This document shows, piece after piece, positions 1,050-17,269 of a stretch of 64,000 nt of DNA. The notes below the pieces were generated by a model that had not been told where the DNA came from, did not search any database, and was given only the letters and a program-made list of their open reading frames with translations. Origin of the DNA: Streptomyces sp. PH10-H1 (GTDB lineage: Bacteria > Actinomycetota > Actinomycetes > Streptomycetales > Streptomycetaceae); contig NZ_JASISZ010000001.1 of NCBI RefSeq assembly GCF_030063355.1, forward strand, positions 186,001-250,000, in the 5' to 3' direction. The position numbers and the translations under genes were made by a program. Each line of letters begins with the position of its first letter. Position 1 is the first letter of the stretch.

Positions 1050-3620
1050 CTACGCGGCGCCCGCGGCCGCGTCTGCCGCCTGGGCCTTCAGGGCGCGCTC
1101 CACGCCGGACCGGGACTCGATGACGAGCCGGCGCAGCGCCGGGACCGGGTCGGCCGAGGCGAGCCAGGCGTCGGTGGCGTCCAGGGTGTCCTGGGTCACC
1201 TGGAGCGACGGGTAGAGACCGACGATGATCTGCTGGCCGATCTCGTGGCTGCGGGAGTCCCACACGCCCTTGACCGCGCCGAAGTACTTGGCGGTGTAGG
1301 GCGCGAGGAGCTCGCGCTGGTCGGTCTGGACGAAACCGCCGATGGCGGCTTCCTGGAGGGAGTTCGCGAGCTTGTCGTCCTCGACGACGGCCGCCCACAC
1401 GGCGGCCTTGGCGTCGGCGGTCGGACGGGCGGCGCGGGCGCCGGCCGCGTGCTGCTCGCCGGCCGACGTCGGGTCGAGGGCGAGTTCCGCCTCGATGACC
1501 GCGTCGTCGGCGTGGCCGGTCGCGGCGAGCCGGTGCAGCAGGGACCAGCGCAGCTCGGTGTCGACGGCCAGGCCGTCGATGCTCTCCGAGCCGTCCAGCA
1601 GCGCGGCGAGCAGATCGAGCTGCTTCGGGGTGCGGGCGGTCGCCGCGAAGGCGCGCGCCCACGCGAGCTGGTGGTCGCTGCCGGGAGCGGCGGCGCGCAG
1701 TTGCTCCAGTGCGGCCTCCGTCCAGCGGGCCAGGCCGGTCTCGCGCCAGGCCGGGTCCGCGTACAGGTCGAGCGCGAGCTTGACCTGGCGGTGCAGCGAC
1801 TGGACGACGCCGATGTCCGACTCCTTGGTGATGCCGGAGAGCACCAGTTCCAGGTAGTCGCGGGTGGCGAGCTCGCCGTCGCGCGTCATGTCCCAGGCCG
1901 CGGACCAGATCAGGGCGCGGGGGAGGGACTCGGTGAAGTCACCGAGGTGGTTGCGGACGACGGCAAGGGACTCATCGTCGAGCCGGACCTTGGCGTACGA
2001 CAGGTCGTCGTCGTTCAGCAGGATCACCGCGGGGCGCGGCGTGTTCTGCGGGAACGGCACCTCGGTCAGCTCGCCGTCCACATCCAGCTCGACGCGGCTG
2101 GTGCGGACCAGCTTGCCGTCCTGGAGGTCGTACCAGCCGATGGCGATCCGGTGTGGCCGCAGCACGGCCTCGCCCTTGGCGCCGGCCGGCAGGGCCGGGG
2201 CCTCCTGGCGGACCGCGAAGGAGGTGATGGTGCCGTCCTCGGCGAGCGTGATCTCCGGGCGCAGGATGTTGATGCCCGCGGTCTCCAGCCACGCCTTCGA
2301 CCAGCTCTTCAGGTCGCGGCCCGAGGTCTTCTCCAGCGCGCCGAGCAGGTCGGAAAGCTGGGTGTTGCCCCAGGCGTGCTGCTTGAAGTACGCCTGCACA
2401 CCGGCGAAGAACTCGTCCATGCCGACGTAGGCCACGAGCTGTTTGAGCACCGAGGCGCCCTTGGCGTACGTGATGCCGTCGAAGTTGACCAGGACGTCGT
2501 CGAGGTCGTTGATCTCCGCCATGATCGGGTGGGTGGACGGCAGCTGGTCCTGCCGGTACGCCCAGGTCTTCATGGAGTTGGCGAACGTGGTCCACGAGTG
2601 CGGGAACTTGCTGCCCGGCGCGTACGCCTGGCAGGCGATCGAGGTGTACGTGGCGAACGACTCGTTCAGCCAGAGGTCGTTCCACCACTCCATGGTGACC
2701 AGGTCGCCGAACCACATGTGGGCCAGCTCGTGGAGGATGGTCTCGGCCCGCTTCTCATACGCCGCGTCCGTCACCTTGGAGCGGAAGACGTACTGGTCAC
2801 GAATGGTGACCGCGCCCGCGTTCTCCATCGCGCCCGCGTTGAACTCCGGCACGAAGAGCTGGTCGTACTTCGCGAACGGGTACGGGAAGTCGAACTTCTC
2901 CTCGAACCAGTCGAAGCCCTGCCGGGTGACGTCGAAGATCGCGTCCGCGTCGAGGAACTCGGCCAGCGACGGGCGGCAGTAGATCGCCAGCGGGACGCTG
3001 CGGTCGTCGCCCTCCCAGGTGCTGTGCACGGCGGTGTACGGGCCGGCGATCAGCGCGGTGATGTAGGAGGAGATGCGCGGCGTGGGGTCGAACCGCCAGA
3101 TGCGGCCCTCGGGCTCCGGCGTCGGGGAGTTGGAGATGACCGTCCAGCCCTCCGGCGCGTTCACCGTGAACTGGAAGGTGCCCTTGAGGTCCGGCTGCTC
3201 GAAGCTGGCGAAGACGCGGCGTGCGTCCGGCACCTCGAACTGGGTGTAGAGGTACGCCTGCTTGTCGACCGGGTCGACGAAGCGGTGCAGGCCCTCACCG
3301 GTGTTGGTGTACGCGCAGTCCGCGACGACGCGCAGCTCATTGCGGCCGGCCACTAGCGACGGCAGGGCGATGCGCGAGTCCGAGAACACCTCGGCGGGAT
3401 CGAGCGCGGTGCCGTTGAGCACCACTTCGTGCACGGTCGGGGCGACCAGATCGATGAATGACGACCCCGCCTTCGCGGCGTCGAAACGCACCGTGGTCAC
3501 CGAACGGAAGGTGCCCCCGTCCTGTGCACCGCTCAGGTCGAGGTCGATCTCGTACGCGTCCACGGTGAGAAGGCGAGCACGCTGCTGCGCCTCCTCGCGG
3601 GTGAGGTTCGTGCCAGGCAC
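1050..3620 (-). CDS. pepN: Aminopeptidase N, M1 family zinc metallopeptidase
   Basis: Cytoplasmic zinc aminopeptidase of about 856 residues that removes N-terminal amino acids from peptides. Exopeptidase motif GAMENAG binds the substrate N-terminus. Zinc motif HELAH starts at H297, with the third ligand in NESFATY 19 residues after the second His. The ERAP1-like C-terminal domain is complete. The GTG at 3620 is preferred because AAGGAG sits 9 nt upstream; an in-frame ATG at 3653 would add 11 residues and overlap that ribosome site. A close paralogue lies at 14520-17096. A perfect palindromic terminator follows the stop. Confidence 0.95.
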   Translation of the reverse strand: MPGTNLTREEAQQRARLLTVDAYEIDLDLSGAQDGGTFRSVTTVRFDAAKAGSSFIDLVAPTVHEVVLNGTALDPAEVFSDSRIALPSLVAGRNELRVVADCAYTNTGEGLHRFVDPVDKQAYLYTQFEVPDARRVFASFEQPDLKGTFQFTVNAPEGWTVISNSPTPEPEGRIWRFDPTPRISSYITALIAGPYTAVHSTWEGDDRSVPLAIYCRPSLAEFLDADAIFDVTRQGFDWFEEKFDFPYPFAKYDQLFVPEFNAGAMENAGAVTIRDQYVFRSKVTDAAYEKRAETILHELAHMWFGDLVTMEWWNDLWLNESFATYTSIACQAYAPGSKFPHSWTTFANSMKTWAYRQDQLPSTHPIMAEINDLDDVLVNFDGITYAKGASVLKQLVAYVGMDEFFAGVQAYFKQHAWGNTQLSDLLGALEKTSGRDLKSWSKAWLETAGINILRPEITLAEDGTITSFAVRQEAPALPAGAKGEAVLRPHRIAIGWYDLQDGKLVRTSRVELDVDGELTEVPFPQNTPRPAVILLNDDDLSYAKVRLDDESLAVVRNHLGDFTESLPRALIWSAAWDMTRDGELATRDYLELVLSGITKESDIGVVQSLHRQVKLALDLYADPAWRETGLARWTEAALEQLRAAAPGSDHQLAWARAFAATARTPKQLDLLAALLDGSESIDGLAVDTELRWSLLHRLAATGHADDAVIEAELALDPTSAGEQHAAGARAARPTADAKAAVWAAVVEDDKLANSLQEAAIGGFVQTDQRELLAPYTAKYFGAVKGVWDSRSHEIGQQIIVGLYPSLQVTQDTLDATDAWLASADPVPALRRLVIESRSGVERALKAQAADAAAGAA

Positions 3621-3804
3621 GGTAGGCCACTCCTTAATGAGACTGACCGCCATCCTTGCACGCGGTGAAGGCGGGGATCAGGGTCTCCACCACCTCCTGC
3701 CTCGGGTTTCCCCTACCCCCAAGAGACCGGGAACCGGCATGGTCCGCGGCGCCTCATGATCCGTAGCGTCGGAGGGGTCGTCAGCAACGGAAACAGAGGA
3801 CATC

Positions 3805-4658
<854 letters not shown>

Positions 4659-4662
<4 letters not shown>

Positions 4663-7343
4663 ACGGCCTCGCCCGCGCCTCCGTGCGCTTCCGGCCCGCG
4701 TCCTTCGCCGGGACGTTCATCGCGCTGATGTTCGCCGCCGCCGTCATCACCGCCTGCGGCACCCTGCTGCAGACCGGGATCACCGCGCACTTCAAGCCCG
4801 AGCGCTACGCCGGTACCCCGGTGGTCGTCGCGGCCGACCAGCACGCCCGGCTGACCACAGGGCACGGCGAGAACGCCGAAACCCAGTCCGTTGCGCTGCC
4901 CGACCGGGCCCGCGTCGACGCCGGGCTCGCGGACCGGATCACCCGCGAACCGGGCGTCGCTTCCGCCGTGCCCGATCTGGGCTTCCCCGTGCAGGGCCGG
5001 ACGGTGCCACCGCTGACCGGCCGCGACTGGTCGGCCACCGCCATCACCGCGCCCGCCGCGGCTCCCGGATCCGCTCCCGGATCCGCTCCCGGATCCGCTC
5101 CCGGATCCGCTCCCGGATCCGCGTCCGGATCCGCGTCCGGATCCGCGTCCGGATCCGCGTCCGGATCCGCGTCCGGATCCGCGTCCGGATCCGCCTCCGG
5201 ATCCGCCTCCGCCACGAGTGCGCTCGCCGAGGGCCGCGCCCCGGCGGCGGGCGAGGTCGTCCTCGGCGCCGCGACGGCCCGCGCCGCGAAGCTCGTCACC
5301 GGCGACACCGTCACCCTCACCGCACCCGCGCGCACCGGCACGTACCGGATCTCCGGCCTGGCGGGGGAGCGGGCGGGGAACGCCACCGCCTGGTTCAGCG
5401 ACGCGACGGCCGCCCGGATCGCCGGGCACCCCGGCCAGGCGGACGCCGTCGCCGTCCAGCCGCGCGAGGGCGTCAGCACGCAGCAGCTCGCCGAGCAGGT
5501 CAGGCACGCTGTCGGCGGCCAGGCGCAGGTGCGCACCGGCGACAGCAGAGGAGAGGTCGAACACCCGGAACTCGCGGGCGGGAAGGAGATGCTGACGGCG
5601 CTCGGCGGGTCCTTCGGCGGCATCGCCGCGATGACCGCGGTCCTCGTCGTCATGGGCACCGTGGCTCTCGCCATCGGCCAGCGCAGCCGGGAGATCGCGC
5701 TGCTGCGGGCGATCGGTGCCACCCCGCGGCAGATCCGCCGCACCGTGGCCACCGAGGCGGTGATCGTCGCCCCGCTCGCCGGAGCGGCCGGCATCCTGCC
5801 GGGGCTGGCACTCGCCCGCTGGTGGTTCGGCCAGCTCGTCGACCGCGGCGCGCTGCCGGCGGGGCTGCGGTTGTCCACCGGTTGGATCCCGATGACCGCC
5901 GCAGTCGGCGCGGGCCTGATCGCCTCGCTCGTCGCCGGCTACCTCGCCGCCCGCCGCCCCTCCAAGGCCCGGCCCAGCCAGGCGTTCGGCGAGGCGGCGG
6001 TGGAACGGCGGCGGCCCGGGATCATCCGTACGGTGCTCGGTACGGTCGCGCTCGCCGGCGGTTTCGTCGTGGCGGCACTCGCCGACCAGGCCACCGGGGA
6101 CGACGCGGCCAACATCGCGCTGGGCGTGGTGATGCTCTTCATGCTCTCCGTCGCCCTGCTCGGACCGGTCGTCGCCTGGGGCGCCGCCGCCGTGCTCGGA
6201 TTCCCGCTGAGCGCGGGCGGGGCGCCGGCCGTGCTCGCCGCCGCCAACGCCCGGGCCAATGCCCGCAGGCTGGCCTCCGCGATCACGCCGATCGTGCTGG
6301 TCATCGCCTTCTGCGGCACGTTGGTCTTCATGCAGAGCACGATGAAGCACGCCTCGGCCGAGCAGATCCGGGACGGCGTCGTCGCCGACCAGATCGTCAG
6401 CGGCACCGGAGCCGGACTGCCCGCCACCACCGCCGCCGCGGCCGCGCGGGTCAAGGGCGTGGACGCGGCCGTCGGTGTCCTGCGCACCGGCGTCCTCTAC
6501 CGGTCGGCCGGTTCGTTCAACACCGCCGCCGCGCTGGGGTTCTCCGGGGATCCGGCCGGTCTGGCCACGGTGCTCGACCTCGGGGTCAAGGAGGGCGCGC
6601 TGGCCGGGCTGACGGCGTCGGATGACACGGTCGCCCTGGACGCGATGCTCGCCGGCAGCGCCCATGTGTCGGTCGGCGACCGCATCGAGCTGCGGCTCGG
6701 CGACGGCGCCACGGTGCACCCCCGGGTCGTCGCCACTTACGAGCGCGGTCTGGGCCTGGGCCAAGTGCTGCTGCCCCGCGCGGCGGTCGCCGGCCATGTG
6801 TCGGCCGCGTACGACAGCCAGGTGCTCGTCCATGACGCGCCGGGCGCCGACCGGGCCGCTGTCGCGAGCGCGCTCCAGCGGCTCGACGCCCCGGGCGTCG
6901 CGGTCACCGACCGGGCCGGGTACACCGCGCAGGCCGACAAGAACGTGGAACTCAACGCCTGGGCGAACCAGGTGATGGCCGCGGTACTCGGCGGATTCGC
7001 CGCCGTCGCTGCGGCCAACACGCTCGTCATGACGGTTCTCGACCGGCGCCGCGAGGTCGCTCTGCTGCGGCTGGCGGGCACCACCCGCCGCCAGGTGCTT
7101 CGGATGATGCGCTGGGAAGCGCTGCTCGTCGGCACCGCGGGCATCGTGATCGGATCGGCCATCGCCTGGGCGACCCTCGCCCCGATCGCCCGCGGCCTGA
7201 CCGGCGGCGCCCCGTACGTACCGCCCACCGTCGCGGCGGCCATCGCCGCCGGTGTGCTGCTGCTGGGCCTGGCCGCCACCGGCCTCCCGGCCCGCGCGCT
7301 GCTCCGTACCCGCCCCATGGAGGCGGGCGCCGCCCGCGAATAG
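4659..7343 (+). CDS. FtsX-like ABC transporter permease with Ser/Gly/Pro/Ala repeat linker
   Basis: 894-residue membrane protein, partner of the upstream ATPase. Two FtsX-type modules are visible: a first membrane helix near residues 15-35, a three-helix block at about 315-440, further helices at 460-560, and a C-terminal block at about 765-890. Motifs REIALLRAIGAT and REVALLRLAGTT are typical coupling-helix regions. The first extracellular domain carries twelve tandem tetrapeptides (APGS, then ASGS; residues 135-182) encoded by perfect 12-bp DNA repeats. GTG start overlaps the ATPase stop. The export substrate is unknown; the family includes lipoprotein and antimicrobial-peptide exporters. 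Confidence 0.9.
5061..5204 (+). repeat. Twelve tandem 12-bp repeats inside the permease gene
   Basis: Five copies of GCTCCCGGATCC, six of GCGTCCGGATCC and one of GCCTCCGGATCC in register. Each copy encodes A-P-G-S or A-S-G-S and contains GGATCC. The length is a multiple of three per unit, so copy-number change would keep the reading frame. Confidence 0.97.
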
Positions 7344-7345
7344 CA

Positions 7346-7398
7346 CGAACCGCTGGACGGGGGCGAACCGCCGGACGGGGGCGAACCGCCGGACGGGC
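7346..7398. repeat. Three 18-bp direct repeats after the permease stop
   Basis: CGAACCGCYGGACGGG recurs at 7346, 7364 and 7382 with an exact 18-bp period, in the short gap between the convergent permease and P450 genes. Confidence 0.85.
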
Positions 7399-7413
7399 CG
7401 GAGGAACCGGCCC
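7395..7413. terminator. Hairpin between convergent permease and P450 genes
   Basis: GGGCCGG (7395-7401) and CCGGCCC (7407-7413) form a 7-bp stem with a 5-nt loop. It could serve both convergent transcripts. Confidence 0.5.
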
Positions 7414-7434
7414 GCCCGGCGGTCGGGGCCGTCG

Positions 7435-8631
7435 TCACCAGACGACGGGCAACCGCTCCGGCAGCCGCTTGATGAATCCGGTGCGCCAGACCAGCTGGTC
7501 GGCCGGTACGGCGAGCCGCAGGTTCGGCAGCCGGCCGACGAGCGCGGTCAGCGCCGCCTCCGCATGGGCGCGGGCCAGCGAGGTGGCCGGGCAGAAGCGG
7601 TTGCCCGCGCCGAAGGACAGATGCGGATTGGACTCGCGGGAGAAGTCGACGCGTTCGGGGTCGGGGAAAACGGCCGGGTCGAAGTTGGCGCCCTCGACCA
7701 GGACGAGCACCAGCTCACCGGCGCGCACCAGGACGTCGCCGACCTGTACGTCCTCCAGCGCGAGGCGCGGCAGGCCGTCGCCGATCGACAGGTTGACGCG
7801 CAGCAGTTCGTCCACGGCGCCGCCCATGCGCCCGGGGTGGGCGCGGAGCTCCTCGATGAGCTCCGGCCGTTGCACGAGCGCCAGGACCGCGTGCACCAGG
7901 AAGGCCGAAGTGCTCACCGCCCCGGCCCCGAACAGCGACAGCGCCACGCTCGCCAGCGCGTCCTCGGTCAGCCCCTCCGCGGGGTCGGCGGTGGCGCGGA
8001 GTTCGGCGAACCGGCCCAGGAGCCCCGGCCCTCCGACGGCCTCCCGGAGCTTCCGCACCAAGTAGGCGTGGTCCTTGTTCCAGTTGGTGACCGACCCGGC
8101 GAACGGCTGCGGGCCGGTGATGAAGGCGATGTCGATGCCGGCCATCAGACGGCGCCAGTCGTCGAAGGGCAGCCCGAGGACCTTGCAGTGCAGCGCCGCC
8201 GAGTAGGGATCGGCGAAACCCGCCCGCAGGTCGGCCGGCGGACCCTCGGCGACGAGATCGTCGATGAGGGCGTTGGCCTGCCTGCTCAGCCACTCGGACA
8301 GACCGCCGCCGGCGCGCGGCGACAGCGCGCGCATCACCTCGGTGCGCAGCCCGGCGCTGTTGATGGTCCCCATGGTGTTGACGACCTCGGGCGGGATCGT
8401 CAGCGCGTACTGGCGCGGAACCCCGGGGTTCGCCGTGTCCTTGAGGCTGAAACGGTCGTCCCCCAGAACCCGCGTGGCCAGTTCATGACTGCTGACGAGC
8501 CAGGCGTCGTCGCCGGTGAGCGTCCTGACCCGGGCCACCGGTTTCTTCTCGCGCAGCCACGCGCATTCCGCGGGCAGTTCGTCGCCGCGCCGGGACAGCG
8601 GGAAATCCAGTTCTGCCTGCTCGGTGGTCAT
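7435..8631 (-). CDS. CYP121-type cytochrome P450, CDPS-associated tailoring enzyme
   Basis: 398-residue soluble P450. The heme ligand is C347 in FGAGNRFCPATSLAR, the K-helix ExxR is in DELLR, and the I-helix reads FGAGAVSTSAF with no acid-alcohol pair, as in M. tuberculosis CYP121 (FGAGVISTGSF, from memory). Similarity to CYP121 runs the whole length: AWLVSS, PPEVVN, ALHCKVLG, DGLPRL, VGDVLVR, GANFDP, QLVWRT, PERLPV. CYP121 couples the two tyrosines of cyclo(Tyr-Tyr). Its substrate-contact residues N85, F280, Q385 and R386 are here T86, I283, I387 and K388, so a different diketopiperazine is likely. The ATG overlaps the CDPS stop (ATGA), so both are co-translated. A ferredoxin partner is not encoded nearby. 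Confidence 0.93.
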   Translation of the reverse strand: MTTEQAELDFPLSRRGDELPAECAWLREKKPVARVRTLTGDDAWLVSSHELATRVLGDDRFSLKDTANPGVPRQYALTIPPEVVNTMGTINSAGLRTEVMRALSPRAGGGLSEWLSRQANALIDDLVAEGPPADLRAGFADPYSAALHCKVLGLPFDDWRRLMAGIDIAFITGPQPFAGSVTNWNKDHAYLVRKLREAVGGPGLLGRFAELRATADPAEGLTEDALASVALSLFGAGAVSTSAFLVHAVLALVQRPELIEELRAHPGRMGGAVDELLRVNLSIGDGLPRLALEDVQVGDVLVRAGELVLVLVEGANFDPAVFPDPERVDFSRESNPHLSFGAGNRFCPATSLARAHAEAALTALVGRLPNLRLAVPADQLVWRTGFIKRLPERLPVVW

Positions 8632-9350
8632 CGGTGGTTCTCCTCTTCCTGATGGGGGCGGATGACGGCGTACGCCTGGTTCGCGGTCGCTCGGAATCCG
8701 CTGCCGCGGGCGAACAGCACTTTGGTCAGCGGCATTTCGGCGTGATAGGAGGACACCGAGGATTCGGCGTTCACGATGGCCGGGGTGTCCACGAAGAACG
8801 GGAGTTCCGCGGCTATGTACCGCAGGCAGGCTCCCCGCTGGCCATCGGTGATCTCGGCGGATTCGCCGATCTTGGGTGCCAGGAACTGGCGGACCATTTC
8901 CTCGCAGGCGGCGCCGAATTCATCGTCGTGCTCCAGGGCGGCCTCGGCTTCCGCGTGCAGCCGGCGGTACTGCGGGTCGCCGGTGAACTCCGACAGCCCG
9001 CGCACCCGGAGCCGGGCGGTCAGCGGGCCGGCCTCGTCCACACCCCGCAGGATCCTGCGGCGTACGGCCTTGAGCTCCTTCGACGCACGCTTCCCCGCGT
9101 GCTCGGCCGTGTACCCGAACGCGGCGAACATCGCGTCGATGTGCAGATCGGCGTAGACGATGTCGATCGCCGAGAAACGGCGGTCCGCCCAGGACGCGAG
9201 TTCCCGGATGCGCTGATGGGTGAAATAGCTGTTCCCCGGACTCACTCCGATGAGGAGATGTTCTCCGTGGTCCCAAATGGTGCGGCATTCATCGGTGAAA
9301 GGGATGACTTCGAATCCAGCGGTGGTGCTCATCGCTGTGGACTGACTCAC
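8628..9350 (-). CDS. Cyclodipeptide synthase (CDPS), NYH subfamily
   Basis: 240 residues (AlbC has 239). CDPSs take two aminoacyl-tRNAs and form a cyclic dipeptide by ping-pong catalysis. The motif GVSPGNSYF contains G35, the covalent nucleophile S37 and N40. CLRYIAAELPFF holds Y178 and E182, and SSYHAEMPL holds Y202 and H203. These numbers equal those of Streptomyces AlbC and place it in the NYH group. GTG at 9350 is chosen because GGGAGG lies 7 nt upstream and it gives the AlbC numbering; ATG at 9332 is internal. The 5' part has many A/T third positions (GGA, GAA, GAT, ATT), unlike its neighbours, suggesting transfer. First of a two-gene operon with the P450. Confidence 0.95.
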   Translation of the reverse strand: MSQSTAMSTTAGFEVIPFTDECRTIWDHGEHLLIGVSPGNSYFTHQRIRELASWADRRFSAIDIVYADLHIDAMFAAFGYTAEHAGKRASKELKAVRRRILRGVDEAGPLTARLRVRGLSEFTGDPQYRRLHAEAEAALEHDDEFGAACEEMVRQFLAPKIGESAEITDGQRGACLRYIAAELPFFVDTPAIVNAESSVSSYHAEMPLTKVLFARGSGFRATANQAYAVIRPHQEEENHR

Positions 9351-9718
9351 GCTGCGGCCTCCCGGACGCGTGGAAAGAATCACCGGGTGAAAGGGAGGGG
9401 TATGACGTGCAGTGGGGTCGGCGGGCCGTGTGACGGCACTCGTGGGAACATCACGGCCAGGGCCGAACGGCCGCCGCGACGGAGAGTGTGATGGAAGTTC
9501 TCAGGCCCGATGGGCCGAGTGAATCCCCCTTGTGCCGCATGTCCCGACGGAGCCCTGTGCTCCTGGTGTGGCGGCAACGGGTTAAAACTACCGGGTGTCG
9601 TCATGAAGTGACTGATCGTGGTGCGAGGTTGGCGTGATCCACCCGGTGTCGAGCCGGAATACGCCCTGTTCGATGGCGCACGGCCAACGCGGGATGACGG
9701 GGATGTGAAGCGGAGGGA

Positions 9719-9761
9719 GCACAACGCGAAAGGGGCACAACGCGAAGGCGGCACAACGCGA
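9719..9761. repeat. Three direct repeats of GCACAACGCGA with 16-bp period
   Basis: GCACAACGCGA begins at 9719, 9735 and 9751, exactly 16 bp apart. The array lies between the CDPS promoter region and the protease terminator. It could be a regulator-binding array or a simple tandem duplication. Confidence 0.85.
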
Positions 9762-9762
9762 C

Positions 9763-9792
9763 GGGGCGGGTGCCCGTGAGAGCACCCGCCCC
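9763..9792 (-). terminator. Terminator of the subtilisin-like protease gene
   Basis: GGGGCGGGTGC (9763-9773) pairs perfectly with GCACCCGCCCC (9782-9792) across an 8-nt loop, 32 bp beyond the protease stop. Confidence 0.8.
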
Positions 9793-9824
9793 GCCGTACC
9801 GCGGTCGTACCGCTGGTCAGCTGG

Positions 9825-12800
9825 TCAGCCGACGACCTTCTTGATGATGACGCTGCCGACTCCGGCGATGGTGCCGCGGGAGTTCAGCAGTTGCACCTCA
9901 CCGAAGAACTGACGTCCTTCGGGGGCCGGGGACGCGGCCACGACATCGGCGGTGACCGTAGCCGAGGCACCGTTGGCCAGCGACACGGTCTTGTTCTCGT
10001 CGACCTTGACCTGGCCGAGCGAGGCCGCGAAGTACACGTCCTTGTAGTTGTACTCCGTGGTGCCGGCCGGGACCGAGTAGCCGATCACCTTGACGGTGTA
10101 CGTACCGGCCGCCGGGTTGGCGAGGCTTACCGCCTCCTCCGAGCTGCCGCCCGCGGACGAGCCGACCTTGGTGCTGCCGAGATAGACCTCCAGGTCGAGG
10201 TCGGCCCGGGTGTCCGAGGTCGAGCCGATCGCCACGTCGAGCCGCGAGGCGCCGGGGCCGACGACCAGGGTGGTCGTCTTCGTCTCGCCCTGCGCGATGG
10301 TCGGGCGGGCGGTCAGCGCGGAGCCGAGGGCGCCGCCCTTCAGCTTGCCGTCAAGGGCGGCGAAGCCGTTGGTGACCTTCCAGTTGACCGCGGCCGGGGT
10401 ACCGACCTTGGCCTCGTCGAGGGTCTGCACGGCCGGGTCGAAGGACACGCCGAGCACGGACGCCGTGACGGCGTACGGGTTGTTCAGCAGTGGCGAGGTG
10501 CGGCGCGCCTCGACCTCGATCTCCCAGACGCCCGGCAGCGGGTCGGCGTACGACCGCAGATCCGGGCGGCAGGTGTTGGCCGGGTTGACGTAGTTCAGGT
10601 AGCAGAACGGGGTGCCGGTGTTCTCGACCGGGACACCGTACGGGTTGATCGCGATGAACCGGGTCTGGCTGGTGGCCTGGATGCCGCCGAGGGCGATCTC
10701 CAGGGACTTGGCGCCGGCCGGCACGTTCACGAAGTGCGAGGTGGTGCTGTTGCGCTGCACCACGCCCGACTCCTTGACGGAGAAGGCGGGCTTGGCCAGC
10801 GGCTTGGAGACCACGACGGTCGCCAGGATCTGCTGGTCGATGCCCTTGGTGCGCTTGTCGTTCACGTTCAGGATCGCGCTGTGCAGGCCGGCGGTCTTCG
10901 CCTTGGCGGAGACCTTGACGGTGACCGGCACGTTCAGCGGGAGCGAGATCTCGCTGCCGCCGACCAGCTTGAAGGTGCCGTCATTGTTCGCCAGCTGCAC
11001 CGTGTGCCTGACCGGGGCGTCGGAGCCGGTGGTGCGGGTGATGGTGACGTCGTACGTCCGGGTCTCGCCGGTCTTGAGACCGCCTTCGCGGTCGTAGATG
11101 CCGGTGCCGAAGCCCGGGGTCTTCAGGAACGCCGACAGCGTGGTGTTGACCGGGGCCTTGACGGTGTACTCGTTGGCCGAGACACCGTCCTTGATCAGGC
11201 TCCAGGCACCGTTGATGTCGATCAGGCCCGAGCCCTCTTCGTACGCCTGGGCGCCCGCGATGTGCTTCGCGGAGCTGGTCAGCGCCGTCCGCAGCGCGGC
11301 CGGGTTGAGCGCGATGTTCTTCGCCTTCGCGGCGGAGATCAGCAGCGCGCTGGCGCCCGCGGCCTGCGGGGAGGCCATCGAGGTGCCCTGCAGCATGGCG
11401 TAGCCGGGCGGCAGGCTGTAGCCGGCCTCGGCGACCGGACTGCCGGGCTCCCAGGTCGGGATGGTGTTGATCGAGGCGCCGGGGGCGGAGATCGACGGGG
11501 TGAACCCGCCGTCCTCACGCGGGCCACGGGAGGAGAACGGCATCATCGCGTAGGCCTTGTCCACCCCGGAGCCGTAGTCGGCCGCCCAGGTGTCCTTGGA
11601 GATCGCGGCACCGACACTCAGGACCTTGTCGGCCAGGCCGGGGTCACCGATGGTGTTGGCACCCGGGCCGCTGTTGCCGGCCGAGATGACCAGCTGGACG
11701 CCGTAGGTGTCGATGAGGCGCGTGTACAGCTCGGCGCGCGCGTTGTTGCCGTCGTTCAGCGCGGGCAGGCCGCCGATGGACATGTTGACGATGTCCACGC
11801 CGTGGTTCACGACGAGGTCGATCATGCCCTCGGTGAGCGCGACGTTGGTGCAGCCGCCGCTCCAGCTGCAGGCGCGCGAGGAGACGATCTTGGCGCCGGG
11901 CGCCGCACCGTTCATCTTGCCGCCGAACAGGCCGTTCGCGGAGGTGATGCCCGCGACGTGGGTGCCGTGCTCGGACTGGACGAGGCCGATGTTGACGAAG
12001 TCGGCCTTCTTGCCTACCCAGTCGCCGCCGTACGGGTCCGTGGGGACGTCCTTGCGGATCTGGACCACGAACGGGATCGACTCGGAGATCGGGGTGTTCG
12101 GATCGTCCGTGCCGAAGTGCGCGACCTGGAAGCCGTTCTTGTACGGCTTGAGGACCTCGTCGTCGCTGAAGTCACCGTTGTTGTTGAGATCGACGCGCAC
12201 CGTACCGGCGGCGGCGTCGTACAGCACGCCCCACACATCGGTGGTGTCGCCGTCACGGTTGAGGTCGCCCGCCATGTCGCCGCCGATCGTGGCGGCTTCG
12301 GAGAACAGGTTGAACTTGTACTTGCCGGCCGGCGCGGTCCAGGTCCGGCCCGCGATGGTGAAGCTGGGGCCCGCCACATCGGCCGTCATCCGGCGCCAGG
12401 TGGCGTCGCCGTCGGTTATCGGGTCGGTCGCGGTGACCCAGTCGACGATCTTGCGCTCGCCGGTGGTGGTCTTCTGCAGCGCGGGGTGACCGAGGTCGAC
12501 ACCCGAGTCCAGGATGCCGATGGTCACGCCGCGGCCGTCGGCCTTCGGGTGGTTCTTGACGAAGTCCACCGCGCCGGTCTCGAAGGCGGGCTGGTACGGG
12601 TTCTTCGCCGGGGTGCTCGCGCTCGGGCCGGAGAAGGTCTTGGCGGCCTTGCCGTTCGACTTCGAGCCCTTGGCGGTGTCCGCCACCGGGGTCGGGTCGT
12701 CGAGCGCGATCTGCTGCTTGAGATCGATGCCGTGGACAGCGGTCAGCTTCTGCGCCTTGGCGATCGCCGCGTCCGCCTTGGCGGTCGGGACGGTCGCGCG

Positions 12801-13139
12801 CACATAGCCGAGCTTGTCGTAGGTGCTGCCCACCGAGGCACCCGAGGCTCCGAGCTGGTCGACGACCTGCTTGGTGGCGCCGGGCGCGGTGGCGATCATC
12901 ATCGTCACGGTCTTGTCGCCGTCGGCCTTGGCCTTGGCGAGGAGCTCCGCATCGGCGGAACCGAGTTTGTCGGTGGAGGCCTTGACCGGGGCCGAGGCGG
13001 GTTTGCCGGTCGGGGCGCCGGTGGGAGCGTTGTCTGCGAACGCGGTGGCGGACCCGGTCGCGGCCAGCGCGGCCACCAGGCCCGCGGCGAGTGCGACGCG
13101 GGCCACGCGTCTCTTCGCGCGTATGTGATCGAGAGGCAT
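9825..13139 (-). CDS. Secreted S8 family (subtilisin-like) serine peptidase
   Basis: About 1104 residues with a signal peptide: basic KRR, a hydrophobic stretch, and a likely cut after ATAFA. The catalytic triad is D211 in GILDSGVD, H391 in EHGTHVAG and S587 in GTSMASPQAAG. The long gap between Asp and His carries two EF-hand-like calcium loops, DLNRDGDTTD and DLNNNGDFSDDE. The N-terminal 170 residues look like a propeptide, and about 480 residues after the Ser form beta-rich domains, the last resembling a pre-peptidase C-terminal fold. ATG at 13139 is preferred: AAGGA lies 5 nt before it but abuts the ATG at 13145. Probably an extracellular nutrient or processing protease. Confidence 0.92.
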   Translation of the reverse strand: MPLDHIRAKRRVARVALAAGLVAALAATGSATAFADNAPTGAPTGKPASAPVKASTDKLGSADAELLAKAKADGDKTVTMMIATAPGATKQVVDQLGASGASVGSTYDKLGYVRATVPTAKADAAIAKAQKLTAVHGIDLKQQIALDDPTPVADTAKGSKSNGKAAKTFSGPSASTPAKNPYQPAFETGAVDFVKNHPKADGRGVTIGILDSGVDLGHPALQKTTTGERKIVDWVTATDPITDGDATWRRMTADVAGPSFTIAGRTWTAPAGKYKFNLFSEAATIGGDMAGDLNRDGDTTDVWGVLYDAAAGTVRVDLNNNGDFSDDEVLKPYKNGFQVAHFGTDDPNTPISESIPFVVQIRKDVPTDPYGGDWVGKKADFVNIGLVQSEHGTHVAGITSANGLFGGKMNGAAPGAKIVSSRACSWSGGCTNVALTEGMIDLVVNHGVDIVNMSIGGLPALNDGNNARAELYTRLIDTYGVQLVISAGNSGPGANTIGDPGLADKVLSVGAAISKDTWAADYGSGVDKAYAMMPFSSRGPREDGGFTPSISAPGASINTIPTWEPGSPVAEAGYSLPPGYAMLQGTSMASPQAAGASALLISAAKAKNIALNPAALRTALTSSAKHIAGAQAYEEGSGLIDINGAWSLIKDGVSANEYTVKAPVNTTLSAFLKTPGFGTGIYDREGGLKTGETRTYDVTITRTTGSDAPVRHTVQLANNDGTFKLVGGSEISLPLNVPVTVKVSAKAKTAGLHSAILNVNDKRTKGIDQQILATVVVSKPLAKPAFSVKESGVVQRNSTTSHFVNVPAGAKSLEIALGGIQATSQTRFIAINPYGVPVENTGTPFCYLNYVNPANTCRPDLRSYADPLPGVWEIEVEARRTSPLLNNPYAVTASVLGVSFDPAVQTLDEAKVGTPAAVNWKVTNGFAALDGKLKGGALGSALTARPTIAQGETKTTTLVVGPGASRLDVAIGSTSDTRADLDLEVYLGSTKVGSSAGGSSEEAVSLANPAAGTYTVKVIGYSVPAGTTEYNYKDVYFAASLGQVKVDENKTVSLANGASATVTADVVAASPAPEGRQFFGEVQLLNSRGTIAGVGSVIIKKVVG

Positions 13140-13294
13140 GGGCATCCTTGTTCGGAAAGCGGTGCCGGTTGACCGCTAAGAGTCACGTAAGCGACCGGTG
13201 TTTGTGGAGAGTTGTCCGAGGCAGGATGTGGACATGACGTGTTTCCGCCATACGCCATGCCAGGCAAAGCGCGCGTAAAGGAGTAAAGCGCCGG

Positions 13295-14519: not shown

Positions 14520-17096
14520 TCACCTGTCGCGGGCCTGGGCGCGGAGGGCTCGGGACAGGTCGTCGCGGGCCTCCAGGACCAGCCGGCGCAGGGCGGGCGC
14601 CGCGTCGGCGTGCGCGTCGAGCCAGGCACCGGCCGCGTCGACGGTCTCCTGGCCGGCCCGATACCTCGGGAAGAGGCCCCGCACGATCGCCATGCCGATC
14701 TCGATGGAGCGCTCCGACCAGATCCGGTCGATCACGGCGAAGTACCGGTCGGCGTAGGGCGCGAGCAGCGCCTCCTGCCCCGGCTGGTCGAAGCCGGCGA
14801 TGCTCGCCTCGACCAGCGCGTTGGAGAGAATGTCGGACTCGACGACCGACGCCCACACCTGCGCCTTGACCTCGGCCGACGGCCGCGCCGCCAGGCAGCG
14901 CACCTGGTGCCGCCGGCCGGAAGCCGTGTCGTCGCGGGCCAGTTCGTCCGCGATCGCGGCCTCATCGGCCTCGCCCGCGGCGGCGAGCGGCTCCAGGAAG
15001 GACCAGCGCAGCTCCTGGTCGATCTCCAGGCCGTCGATCTTGGCGTTGCCCCCGAGCAGCCCGCCCAGGAGTTGGAGATCGGCCGCGGACGAGGCCACCG
15101 AGGCGAAGAAGCGCGCCCAGGCGAGCTGGTGGCCGCTGCCCGGCTCAGCCTTCCGCAGCTCGCTCAGCGCGCCGTCGGCCAGCGCCCTGGCGCCCTCGGC
15201 GCGCCACTGCGGCGCGGCGTAGTGGTGCAGCGCGGTCCGCGCCTGCTGGTGCAGGGACTGCAGCACGCCGATGTCGGACTCCTGCCCGGCGAAGCGCAGT
15301 ACGAGGCCGATGTACTCGCGGGCCGGCATTGCCGCGTCCCGGGTCAGATTCCACACCGCCGACCAGGACAGCGCCCGCGCCAGCGGGTCGGACAGGTCGC
15401 CCAGGTGCTTGCGCAGGGTGTCGAGCGAGCGCGGGTCGAAGCGGATCTTGCAGTAGGTGAGGTCCTCGTCGTTGACGAGGATCAGCTCGGGCCGCTCGGC
15501 CCCGGCCAGCTCCGCCACGACCGTGCGCGGACCCGTCACGTCGGTCTCGGCGCGGGCGTAGCGCTCCAGGGCGCCGCCCGCCGCCCGCCGGTACAGGCCG
15601 ACGGCGACGCGGTGCGGCCGCAGCTCCGGGTGCGACTCGGCGGCGGTCTGCAGGACGGCCAGCTCGGTGATCCGGTCCGCGGTGTCGTACACGGCGTCCG
15701 GGGTCAGCGCGTTGACGCCCGCGGTCTGCAGCCAGGCGCGGGACCACTGCGCCATGTCCCGGCCCGAGGTCTCCTCCAGCACCGCCAGCAGGTCCGCCAG
15801 CGTGGTGTTCCCGTACGCGTGGCGCTTGAAGTAGCGCCTGGCCGCCTCCAGGAAGGCGTCCGGGCCGACGTAGGCGACGAGCTGCTTCAGCACGGACGCG
15901 CCCTTGGCGTACGTGATGCCGTCGAAGTTGAGCTTGGCGTCCTGCAGGTCGTGGATGTCCGCGGTGACCGGGTGGGTGGAGGGCAGCTGGTCGGCCCGGT
16001 AAGCCCACGCCTTGCGGCGGTTGGCGAAGGTGATCCAGCCGTCCGTGAAGCGGGTGGCCTCCACCTGCGCGTACGCGCCCATGAAGTCGGCGAACGACTC
16101 CTTGAGCCACAGGTCGTCCCACCACTGCATGGTGACCAGGTCGCCGAACCACATGTGCGCCATCTCGTGCAGGATGACGTTGGCCCGGCCCTCGTAGGCC
16201 GCCTGCGTCACCTTGCCGCGGAACACGAACTCCTCGCGGAACGTGACACAGCCCGGGTTCTCCATCGCGCCGATGTTGTACTCGGGCACGAACGCCTGGT
16301 CGTACTTCCCGAAGGGGTACGGGTAGTCGAAGGTGTCGTGGAAGAAGTCCAGGCCCTGCTTGGTGACGGTGAAGATGTCGTCCGCGTCGAAGTGCGGCGC
16401 GAGCGAGGCCCGGCACAGCGCGCCGAGCGGGATCTCCAGCACGGTGCCGTCGTCGAAGGAGCGCGAGTAGTGGTCGTGCGCCAGGTGGTACGGCCCGGCG
16501 ACGACAGCCGTGATGTACGTCGAGATCGGCTTGGTGGGCGCGAAGTGCCAGGTGGCGGAGGCGGGGTCGGCCTTCTGCGGCTCGCCGGCCCGGTCTTCGT
16601 TGCTCAGTACGGTCCAGTGCGCGGGCGCTGTCACCGTGAAGGTGAAGGGCGCCTTGAGGTCGGGCTGCTCGAAGTTCGCGAAGACCCGCCGGGCGTCGGC
16701 CGGCTCGTACTGCGTATAGAGGTACGTCTCGCCGTCCTCCGGGTCGGCGAACCGGTGCATCCCCTCGCCCGTCCGGCTGTACACGCAGCGCGCGTCCACG
16801 GTGAGAACGTTCTCGGCGGCGAGGCCGTCGATCGCGATCCGCGTCCCGTCGAAGACGGACGCCGGGTCCAGCTCGACTCCGTTGAGCACCACGGACTCGA
16901 CGGAGCGCGCGAGCAGGTCCACGAAGGTGGCCGTGCCCGGCTGCGCGGACCGGAAGCGGATGGTGGTCACCGAGCGGAAGGTGTCCTCGTCGGGCCGGGT
17001 GGCCGACCTCAGGTCGAGCGCGATCTCGTACCCGTCGACCGACAGGATCCGAGCGCGTTCGCGGGCCTCTTCACGGGACAGGTTCTCGCCGGGCAC
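14520..17096 (-). CDS. Aminopeptidase N, M1 family (second copy)
   Basis: About 858 residues, paralogous to the pepN at 1050-3620. It shares GAMENPG, the zinc motif HEMAHMWFGDLV (H310, E311, H314) with KESFADF for the third ligand, and the stretch GITYAKGASVLKQLVAYVG found unchanged in both proteins. GTG at 17096 is chosen because AAAGGAG lies 6 nt upstream; an in-frame ATG at 17117 would precede this site. Likely cytoplasmic peptide turnover. The two copies flank the accessory stretch with the CDPS pair. Confidence 0.94.
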   Translation of the reverse strand: MPGENLSREEARERARILSVDGYEIALDLRSATRPDEDTFRSVTTIRFRSAQPGTATFVDLLARSVESVVLNGVELDPASVFDGTRIAIDGLAAENVLTVDARCVYSRTGEGMHRFADPEDGETYLYTQYEPADARRVFANFEQPDLKAPFTFTVTAPAHWTVLSNEDRAGEPQKADPASATWHFAPTKPISTYITAVVAGPYHLAHDHYSRSFDDGTVLEIPLGALCRASLAPHFDADDIFTVTKQGLDFFHDTFDYPYPFGKYDQAFVPEYNIGAMENPGCVTFREEFVFRGKVTQAAYEGRANVILHEMAHMWFGDLVTMQWWDDLWLKESFADFMGAYAQVEATRFTDGWITFANRRKAWAYRADQLPSTHPVTADIHDLQDAKLNFDGITYAKGASVLKQLVAYVGPDAFLEAARRYFKRHAYGNTTLADLLAVLEETSGRDMAQWSRAWLQTAGVNALTPDAVYDTADRITELAVLQTAAESHPELRPHRVAVGLYRRAAGGALERYARAETDVTGPRTVVAELAGAERPELILVNDEDLTYCKIRFDPRSLDTLRKHLGDLSDPLARALSWSAVWNLTRDAAMPAREYIGLVLRFAGQESDIGVLQSLHQQARTALHHYAAPQWRAEGARALADGALSELRKAEPGSGHQLAWARFFASVASSAADLQLLGGLLGGNAKIDGLEIDQELRWSFLEPLAAAGEADEAAIADELARDDTASGRRHQVRCLAARPSAEVKAQVWASVVESDILSNALVEASIAGFDQPGQEALLAPYADRYFAVIDRIWSERSIEIGMAIVRGLFPRYRAGQETVDAAGAWLDAHADAAPALRRLVLEARDDLSRALRAQARDR

Positions 17097-17269
17097 TGGT
17101 GACTCCTTTGTCAGCATCTTCGATCATTCGCATACTGCCACGCCGCACAGAGGGGCGACAGGCGGGAATGCGGCCCGCGATCCGGAGGTTTCCGAGGTAC
17201 GAGCAGCGCCGTGCCGTGTCGCGCCGCACGACGTTCCGTGCCCCGTTCCGTGCCCGAGGAGAAGAAGCA

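Follow-up and report, generated by a model that had tools for sequence, protein, structure and literature searches.

A cyclodipeptide synthase and cytochrome P450 gene pair of probable tryptophan-purine type in Streptomyces sp. PH10-H1

A 64,000-nucleotide stretch of the Streptomyces sp. PH10-H1 genome (assembly GCF_030063355.1, contig NZ_JASISZ010000001.1, positions 186,001 to 250,000; hereafter the window) contains two overlapping genes for a cyclodipeptide synthase (CDPS) and a cytochrome P450. The pair probably encodes an NYH-type synthase for cyclo(Trp-Trp) (cWW) or another tryptophan cyclodipeptide, to which a purine base would be coupled by the P450, an enzyme of the PtmB/GutD kind; it lies on a segment absent in three close relatives. 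The locus belongs to the known Gut/Ptm kind; this member has probably not been characterised before. This reading moves what had been framed as a relative of mycocyclosin into the class of tryptophan cyclodipeptides coupled to purines, the biological function of which is called unknown in an excerpt of the 2021 review PMC7954767. Added to what was known are this reassignment, a lineage of P450s with threonine at position 85 and a cassette that may have moved.

Gene pair, synthase pocket and P450 kinship

The CDPS gene (8628..9350, minus strand; 240 aa) starts with GTG, preceded by GGGAGG, and ends with TGA. The P450 gene (7435..8631, minus strand; 398 aa) starts with ATG, preceded by GAGGAG. 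The stop of the first and the start of the second share the bases ATGA (8628..8631, minus strand), and translational coupling is likely. The synthase matches the Pfam CDPS profile over 220 of 220 positions (1.2e-82) and the NCBIfam CDPS family (2.2e-80), and it is assigned to the NYH subfamily because Ser37, Asn40, Tyr178, Glu182, Tyr202 and His203 are all present. The second protein matches Pfam p450 (2.5e-18) and aligns with CYP121 over residues 8-398 at 51.3% identity. Chance is ruled out for the pair, its overlap and the order CDPS-P450. The minimal two-gene cyclodipeptide locus of the original prediction, with a complete NYH-type CDPS and the order of Rv2275-Rv2276, was thus borne out. 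Its description of the P450 as resembling CYP121 holds for the nearly end-to-end alignment; CYP121-type is not the best framing, as PtmB is the best-scoring solved enzyme and the synthase pocket is of Trp type. No Rfam RNA was found in 7000-10200. An AlphaFold model of the P450 (mean pLDDT 82.8; weak at residues 76-78 and 341-345, beside the contacts in question) was relied on for the fold only.

Pocket residues of the synthase were read at what we take to be the AlbC pocket positions, which agree with those named in passages of the papers cited below. The first pocket (P1) is LGVALFFS and the second (P2) MQFPAMP. As a control of the numbering, Rv2275 yields VGVTMLFN, a cyclo(Tyr-Tyr) (cYY) motif in passages of PMC5816076. 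According to the same excerpts, Trp-accommodating synthases of the NozA-like group carry V-A or I-A at P1 positions 3 and 4. The query has such a P1 together with the catalytic set SNYEYH, as expected of a Gut/Ptm pair, and its P1 is identical to that of GutA24283, which makes cWW (PMC13122648). The P1 motif of cYY-type synthases, VG[VI]TMLFN, is not present, and the score against the NCBIfam cyclodityrosine synthase family NF052540 is 256 bits, under the cut-off of 300.

The P450 shares 68-71% identity with guanitrypmycin-type P450s (PtmB, GutD24283 and the S. purpureus P450, 9o4d), 55% with GymB1 and 51% with CYP121. The best-scoring solved structures are 9o4d and PtmB (588-597 bits); PtmB was crystallised, by the PDB titles, with cyclo(Trp-Trp) plus hypoxanthine, guanine or adenine. 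The dimerases NascB, NzeB and TtpB are not close kin (160-190 bits), and the protein is not of the CypX type (TIGR04538; 74.7 bits, threshold 500). In the best tree a 100/100 split sets it, together with PtmB/GutD, apart from GymB/CYP121, and it forms a branch with the Embleya homologue P0123 that contains no characterised reference; the references did not include GutD1521, GutD2774, GutD24309, GutD3589, PcmD and GtmD, one of which could still fall in this branch. Approximately unbiased (AU) tests reject a grouping of the query with S. purpureus (p 0.002) or with S. xanthophaeus B-5414 (p 0.011). A position of the query branch as sister to the whole seven-row PtmB group was not rejected (p 0.317), and an earlier test of the query with PtmB and GutD24283 only (p 2e-6) is uninformative, their close kin having been left out. 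No separation from the PtmB group is claimed; that group may be the nearest characterised branch. Phylogeny, for both proteins, was part of the check originally proposed, and near-identity to a characterised pair, which would have spoken against novelty, was not found: the best identities among the references are 59.6% (CDPS) and 70.9% (P450), and the exact product may be undescribed.

The pairing of pocket and P450 was surveyed in 54 locus entries that hold both genes and a P450 more than 50% identical to the query. All 46 entries with Ser229 in the P450 have V-A in the synthase, and all eight with Thr229 have V-T or I-T. Once six repeat entries for the same place are removed from the 46, there remain 40 distinct Gut-type loci (query included) and eight Gym-type loci, and among these 48 the Trp/Gut and Tyr/Gym pairings show no crossing. 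The Gym-type call was made on residue 229; for five of the eight (L066, L068, L072, L074 and L077) a tree likewise gave a position within the GymB/CYP121 clade. Gut-type CDPS-P450 pairs are common, and some public records name their P450s 'mycocyclosin synthase'. The pairing offers a simple rule that separates Trp/purine from Tyr/mycocyclosin loci.

Several arrangements of these genes were noted on the side. In Streptomyces sp. ISL-98 (L034:1155-3596) a single open frame runs through a CDPS and a Gut-type P450 without an intervening stop, a candidate natural fusion of 814 aa (Pfam CDPS 180-398, p450 632-783). Remnants of about 25 residues of the CDPS C-terminus stand just upstream of a full-length P450 at L012:5808-5882 and L121:3724-3801, and no CDPS was found by tblastn within the flanking DNA examined of L008, L025, L037 and L042. 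Loss of the CDPS with retention of the P450 seems to be recurrent. The query genome itself has a second CDPS on another contig (C173; P1 VGVPMFFN, P2 MEVARLP), the motifs of which matched none of the rows viewed of the Gondry 2018 table. At L124:2269-5466 its gene comes after one for an AMP-binding enzyme and before a DUF3050/haem-oxygenase-like gene, possibly a three-gene cyclodipeptide cluster.

In the proposed pathway the synthase would load Trp-tRNA in P1, hold the tryptophanyl group on Ser37, join a second aminoacyl group, most likely Trp to judge from the relatives, and cyclise the product. The P450 would then bind the diketopiperazine above the haem, along with guanine or hypoxanthine, and make an indole radical that forms a C-C or C-N bond to the base. 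By analogy with the title of the PtmB paper, which speaks of a nucleobase-driven P450 peroxidase (Wei 2024, in the reference list of PMC13122648), the reaction would probably be peroxide-driven and nucleobase-dependent. Characterised relatives attach guanine or hypoxanthine via different atoms (excerpts of PMC7954767; PMC13122648), and because those in the reference set do so at 66-88% mutual P450 identity, the sequence does not reveal the bond position. The original statement that no product can be assigned is too cautious: the bond is not predictable, but the class, a Trp cyclodipeptide with a purine base, is.

Position 85 and alternative readings

In CYP121 the carbonyl of the diketopiperazine is hydrogen-bonded directly by Asn85 (PMC11084333). 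The query has Thr at this position (Thr86 in its own numbering, in which Thr89, Glu98, Arg345 and Ala353 are further landmarks), and all nine reference sequences have Asn; the nine count one enzyme twice, as 9o4d and L031, and include with L029 a close homologue that is not a tested strain. Among the 119 closest homologues listed, Asn occurs in 114, Thr and Ser in two each and His in one. In 59 locus P450 entries above 50% identity (duplicates included) there are 56 with Asn, two with Thr (the query gene twice) and one gap. Asn85 is thus conserved in the Gut/Ptm family, which the query departs from here, though in the literature consulted it is not a defining trait. At eleven positions the query is unlike at least 107 of the 119 homologues listed. 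Near-invariant family residues are replaced by Thr85, Asn183 and Arg343, and six replacements are common to the query and Embleya P0123 (Asn85Thr, Ala97Glu, Lys100Arg, Thr225Ser, His343Arg and Gly351Ala). At the positions that discriminate Gut from Gym, the Gut residue is kept at Asn90, Thr170, Ser229, Gly281, Ile385 and Lys386 (the last also found in Gym), though not at 183. The CYP121 trio Asn85/Gln385/Arg386 reads Thr/Ile/Lys in the query and Asn/Met/Lys in GymB1.

Lacking the Asn side chain for a ring hydrogen bond of the CYP121 kind, the Thr85 enzyme would be expected to bind its substrate in a changed pose. A whole-word literature search found no Asn85 mutants of CYP121. The locus is a natural test of one active-site residue, in which the ring-anchoring Asn is replaced while the synthase is intact; should the product prove to be new, position 85 would give a handle on the site of base attachment. 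A single clade of Thr85-Glu97 P450s (query, P0123, L121 and L122), a group defined only after a first tree, was weakened by its AU test (p 0.014).

A number of observations weigh against the purine-coupling reading or parts of it. An AU test does not reject a grouping of the query and P0123 with GymB/CYP121 (p 0.099), so the P450 tree does not settle the matter by itself. The part of PMC5816076 consulted also gives one Phe enzyme with the V-A pair. The second amino acid cannot be predicted from MQFPAMP, and Table 2 in the same extracts labels the S. purpureus motif pair LGVALFFS/MTFPQIP as Trp/Tyr; in their Table 1 an S. purpureus CDPS is listed with cWW (100%), the matching of rows between the two tables being ambiguous. 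For these reasons the assignment of cWW rests on kinship rather than on the pocket. The presumed promoter region of the pair (9351..9713, minus strand) has no sigma-70-type consensus site, and no sigma-70 promoter or terminator match was found. The DNA pattern for PEVVNTMG occurs in three of 394 family genomes (the query genome, G049 twice, G377), and the other P450s with it are 58-63% identical to the query and look decayed where inspected, with 6.5-8 kb of flanking DNA per locus: L121 has a CDPS remnant of 26 aa only, L122 has no CDPS by tblastn and a P450 frame without its first 61 residues, and L123, the second G049 copy, is split across frames and lacks a CDPS. Since Thr85 is rare and these copies look decayed, relaxed selection is possible for Thr85 copies alongside changed function.

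Of the other readings, a base-coupled Trp cyclodipeptide other than cWW (cWY, cWF, cWA etc.) overlaps with the preferred one and is, as a distinct case, rather unlikely. It draws on the uninformative P2, on the variable second residue of cW2X synthases (PMC5816076, in part) and on descriptions of base-coupling P450s that act on cWY, cWF and cWM (passages of PMC7954767 and PMC10092475), with which the query was compared by description. PtmB, GutD24283 and the enzymes of S. purpureus and S. xanthophaeus B-5414, however, use cWW (PMC7954767, in part; PMC13122648), and the cWY, cWF and cWM systems carry, in the passages cited, extra oxidase, methyltransferase or oxygenase genes, none of which was seen in the 2.41-kb segment described below.

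It is unlikely that the product is a Trp cyclodipeptide on which the Thr85 enzyme performs a changed reaction (ring closure, hydroxylation or dimerisation) with no base. The replacements at positions 85, 183 and 343 would fit such a change, as would the fact that the dimerases NascB, NzeB and TtpB1 of this fold do such chemistry (PMC7954767, in extract), yet the six retained Gut residues, despite the exception at 183, and the gap between dimerase and PtmB scores argue against it. That the locus is decaying or silent and makes nothing in this strain is improbable: the CDPS is repeatedly lost in relatives and the K. azatica cluster is silent under standard conditions (PMC13122648), but here both frames are open, and the ribosome-binding sites, the overlap and all catalytic residues tested are intact. 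A mycocyclosin-type pathway, with a cYY synthase and a cross-linking P450 that perhaps couples a base on the side as in gym loci, is very improbable: the query's wider P450 family takes in CYP121 and GymB (51-55%), the nearest CDPS with a solved structure is Rv2275 and the AU test does not by itself exclude that grouping, but the pocket (as against VG[VI]TMLFN or the V-T/I-T core of the eight Gym loci and Rv2275) and the NCBIfam cut-off reject it, and the split in the best tree and the loss of CYP121 Asn85, Gln385 and Arg386 agree.

Genomic site

Both genes lie on a 2,410-bp segment (7345..9754) in which they are the only open frames assigned. Three close relatives (L114, L115 and L116) lack it at this site: in genomes G019, G007 and G021 the matches to 5203-7344 (G021: 5223-7344) and those from 9755 onward are only 10-13 bases apart. 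These three were the only relatives aligned here; in a fourth, G020, contigs break at the site. An 18-bp tandem repeat (2.9 copies, 7346..7397) marks the left end of the segment and a 16-bp tandem repeat (2.9 copies, 9714..9761) the right end. No target-site duplication or inverted ends were found at the segment, the longest shared word being 7 bases and no inverted word reaching 8.

To the left lies an FtsX-like ABC permease gene (4659..7343, plus strand), which adjoins the gene of an S8-type peptidase in the three relatives, next to an ATPase gene (3805-4662, Pfam). To the right is the gene of that large S8-type serine peptidase (9825..13145, minus strand); permease and peptidase were named by reading the sequence. 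The distance between the flanking genes is variable in the genus: in the 26 relatives where a single contig carries both, it ranges from 0.9 to 13.7 kb. In the genus group of 35 genomes (34 besides the query), such a P450 (E 1e-100) occurs in two of the 34, as 59% identical Gym-type copies with their own CDPS elsewhere, so gain of the segment by the query is likelier than loss, though loss by all three relatives is possible. The near relatives G019 and G007 (L066, L067), which lack the query locus, carry a Gym-type pair with a cYY pocket elsewhere in the genome.

Third-position GC is 0.83 in the CDPS gene, 0.92 in the P450 gene and 0.92-0.95 in three neighbours measured. Of the other loci with this type of P450, 39 had more than 12 kb of DNA (five shorter ones were excluded); of the 39, 36 share a common upstream and 38 a common downstream flank by single linkage of tblastx, which can over-join; the window shares neither. 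No copy of the P450 was found in 72,556 plasmid records (E 1e-60), and no viral copy was found.

A tentative extension, which we regard as doubtful, is that the Thr85/Arg343 lineage (this locus and Embleya P0123 with P0041, the CDPS of the same strain, which probably neighbours it since both are listed with a longest contig of 228,900) is a separate nucleobase-coupling branch without the Asn anchor and with an undescribed bond or base, and that the pair is a self-contained cassette landing at new sites.

Elsewhere in the window, a 12-bp unit is repeated 12.2 times (97% match) at 5065-5211 within the permease gene, near which the alignment to relatives breaks. The aminopeptidase N encoded at 1050-3653 shares 94% identity with its counterpart in S. 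fildesensis (Streptomyces in NCBI); as the genus group comprises no more than 35 genomes, the GTDB genus may be a different one. A second aminopeptidase N paralogue, 56% identical to the first and with one TGA inside the match, lies at about 14520-17114 (G000:C111:200520-203114); a second match also occurs in 33 of the group's other 34 genomes.

Comparison with known systems

Among the closest known systems are ptmA-ptmB of Kitasatospora mediocidica and gut24283 of K. azatica, which yield guanitrypmycins D3, C3-3 and C3-5; for gut24283, PMC13122648 gives measured [M+H]+ values near 373.17 (cWW), 522.20 (guanine adduct) and 507.19 (hypoxanthine adduct). They too consist of a CDPS gene followed by a P450 gene, the P450s are 68-69% identical to the query, and GutA24283 has the same P1. 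The query differs in Thr85 and Arg343, in a CDPS only 52% identical to GutA24283 and in its genomic place.

The gut5737 locus of Streptomyces purpureus, which makes guanitrypmycin C3-1 and is equated here with the sole CDPS locus of strain JCM 3172 (L031; P450 99.7% identical to 9o4d), has two genes, an identical P1 and a P450 of 70.5-70.9% identity; unlike the query it has Asn85 and His343, its CDPS is 55.9% identical, and a common grouping was rejected. The gut5414 locus of Streptomyces xanthophaeus NRRL B-5414 (L016), which gives hypoxanthine and guanine adducts of cWW, also has two genes (CDPS 59.6%, P450 69.2%), whereas its P1 ends in Ala, its P450 has Asn85, its flanks are those common to most Streptomyces loci, and the AU test again separates the two. 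In an excerpt of the 2021 review (PMC7954767), GutD5414 and GutD5737 are 57% identical, whereas 75.5% was measured here between the S. purpureus P450 and the one next to the sole CDPS that was found in the genome of NRRL B-5414.

With the gym loci (GymB1 of S. flavidovirens, GymB5 of S. katrae) and Rv2275-CYP121 the pair shares the gene order, the overall fold and an NYH-type CDPS. These systems differ in their Tyr-type pocket, their cYY substrate and P450s of 51-55% identity that stand on the opposite side of the split in the best tree (AU p as above).
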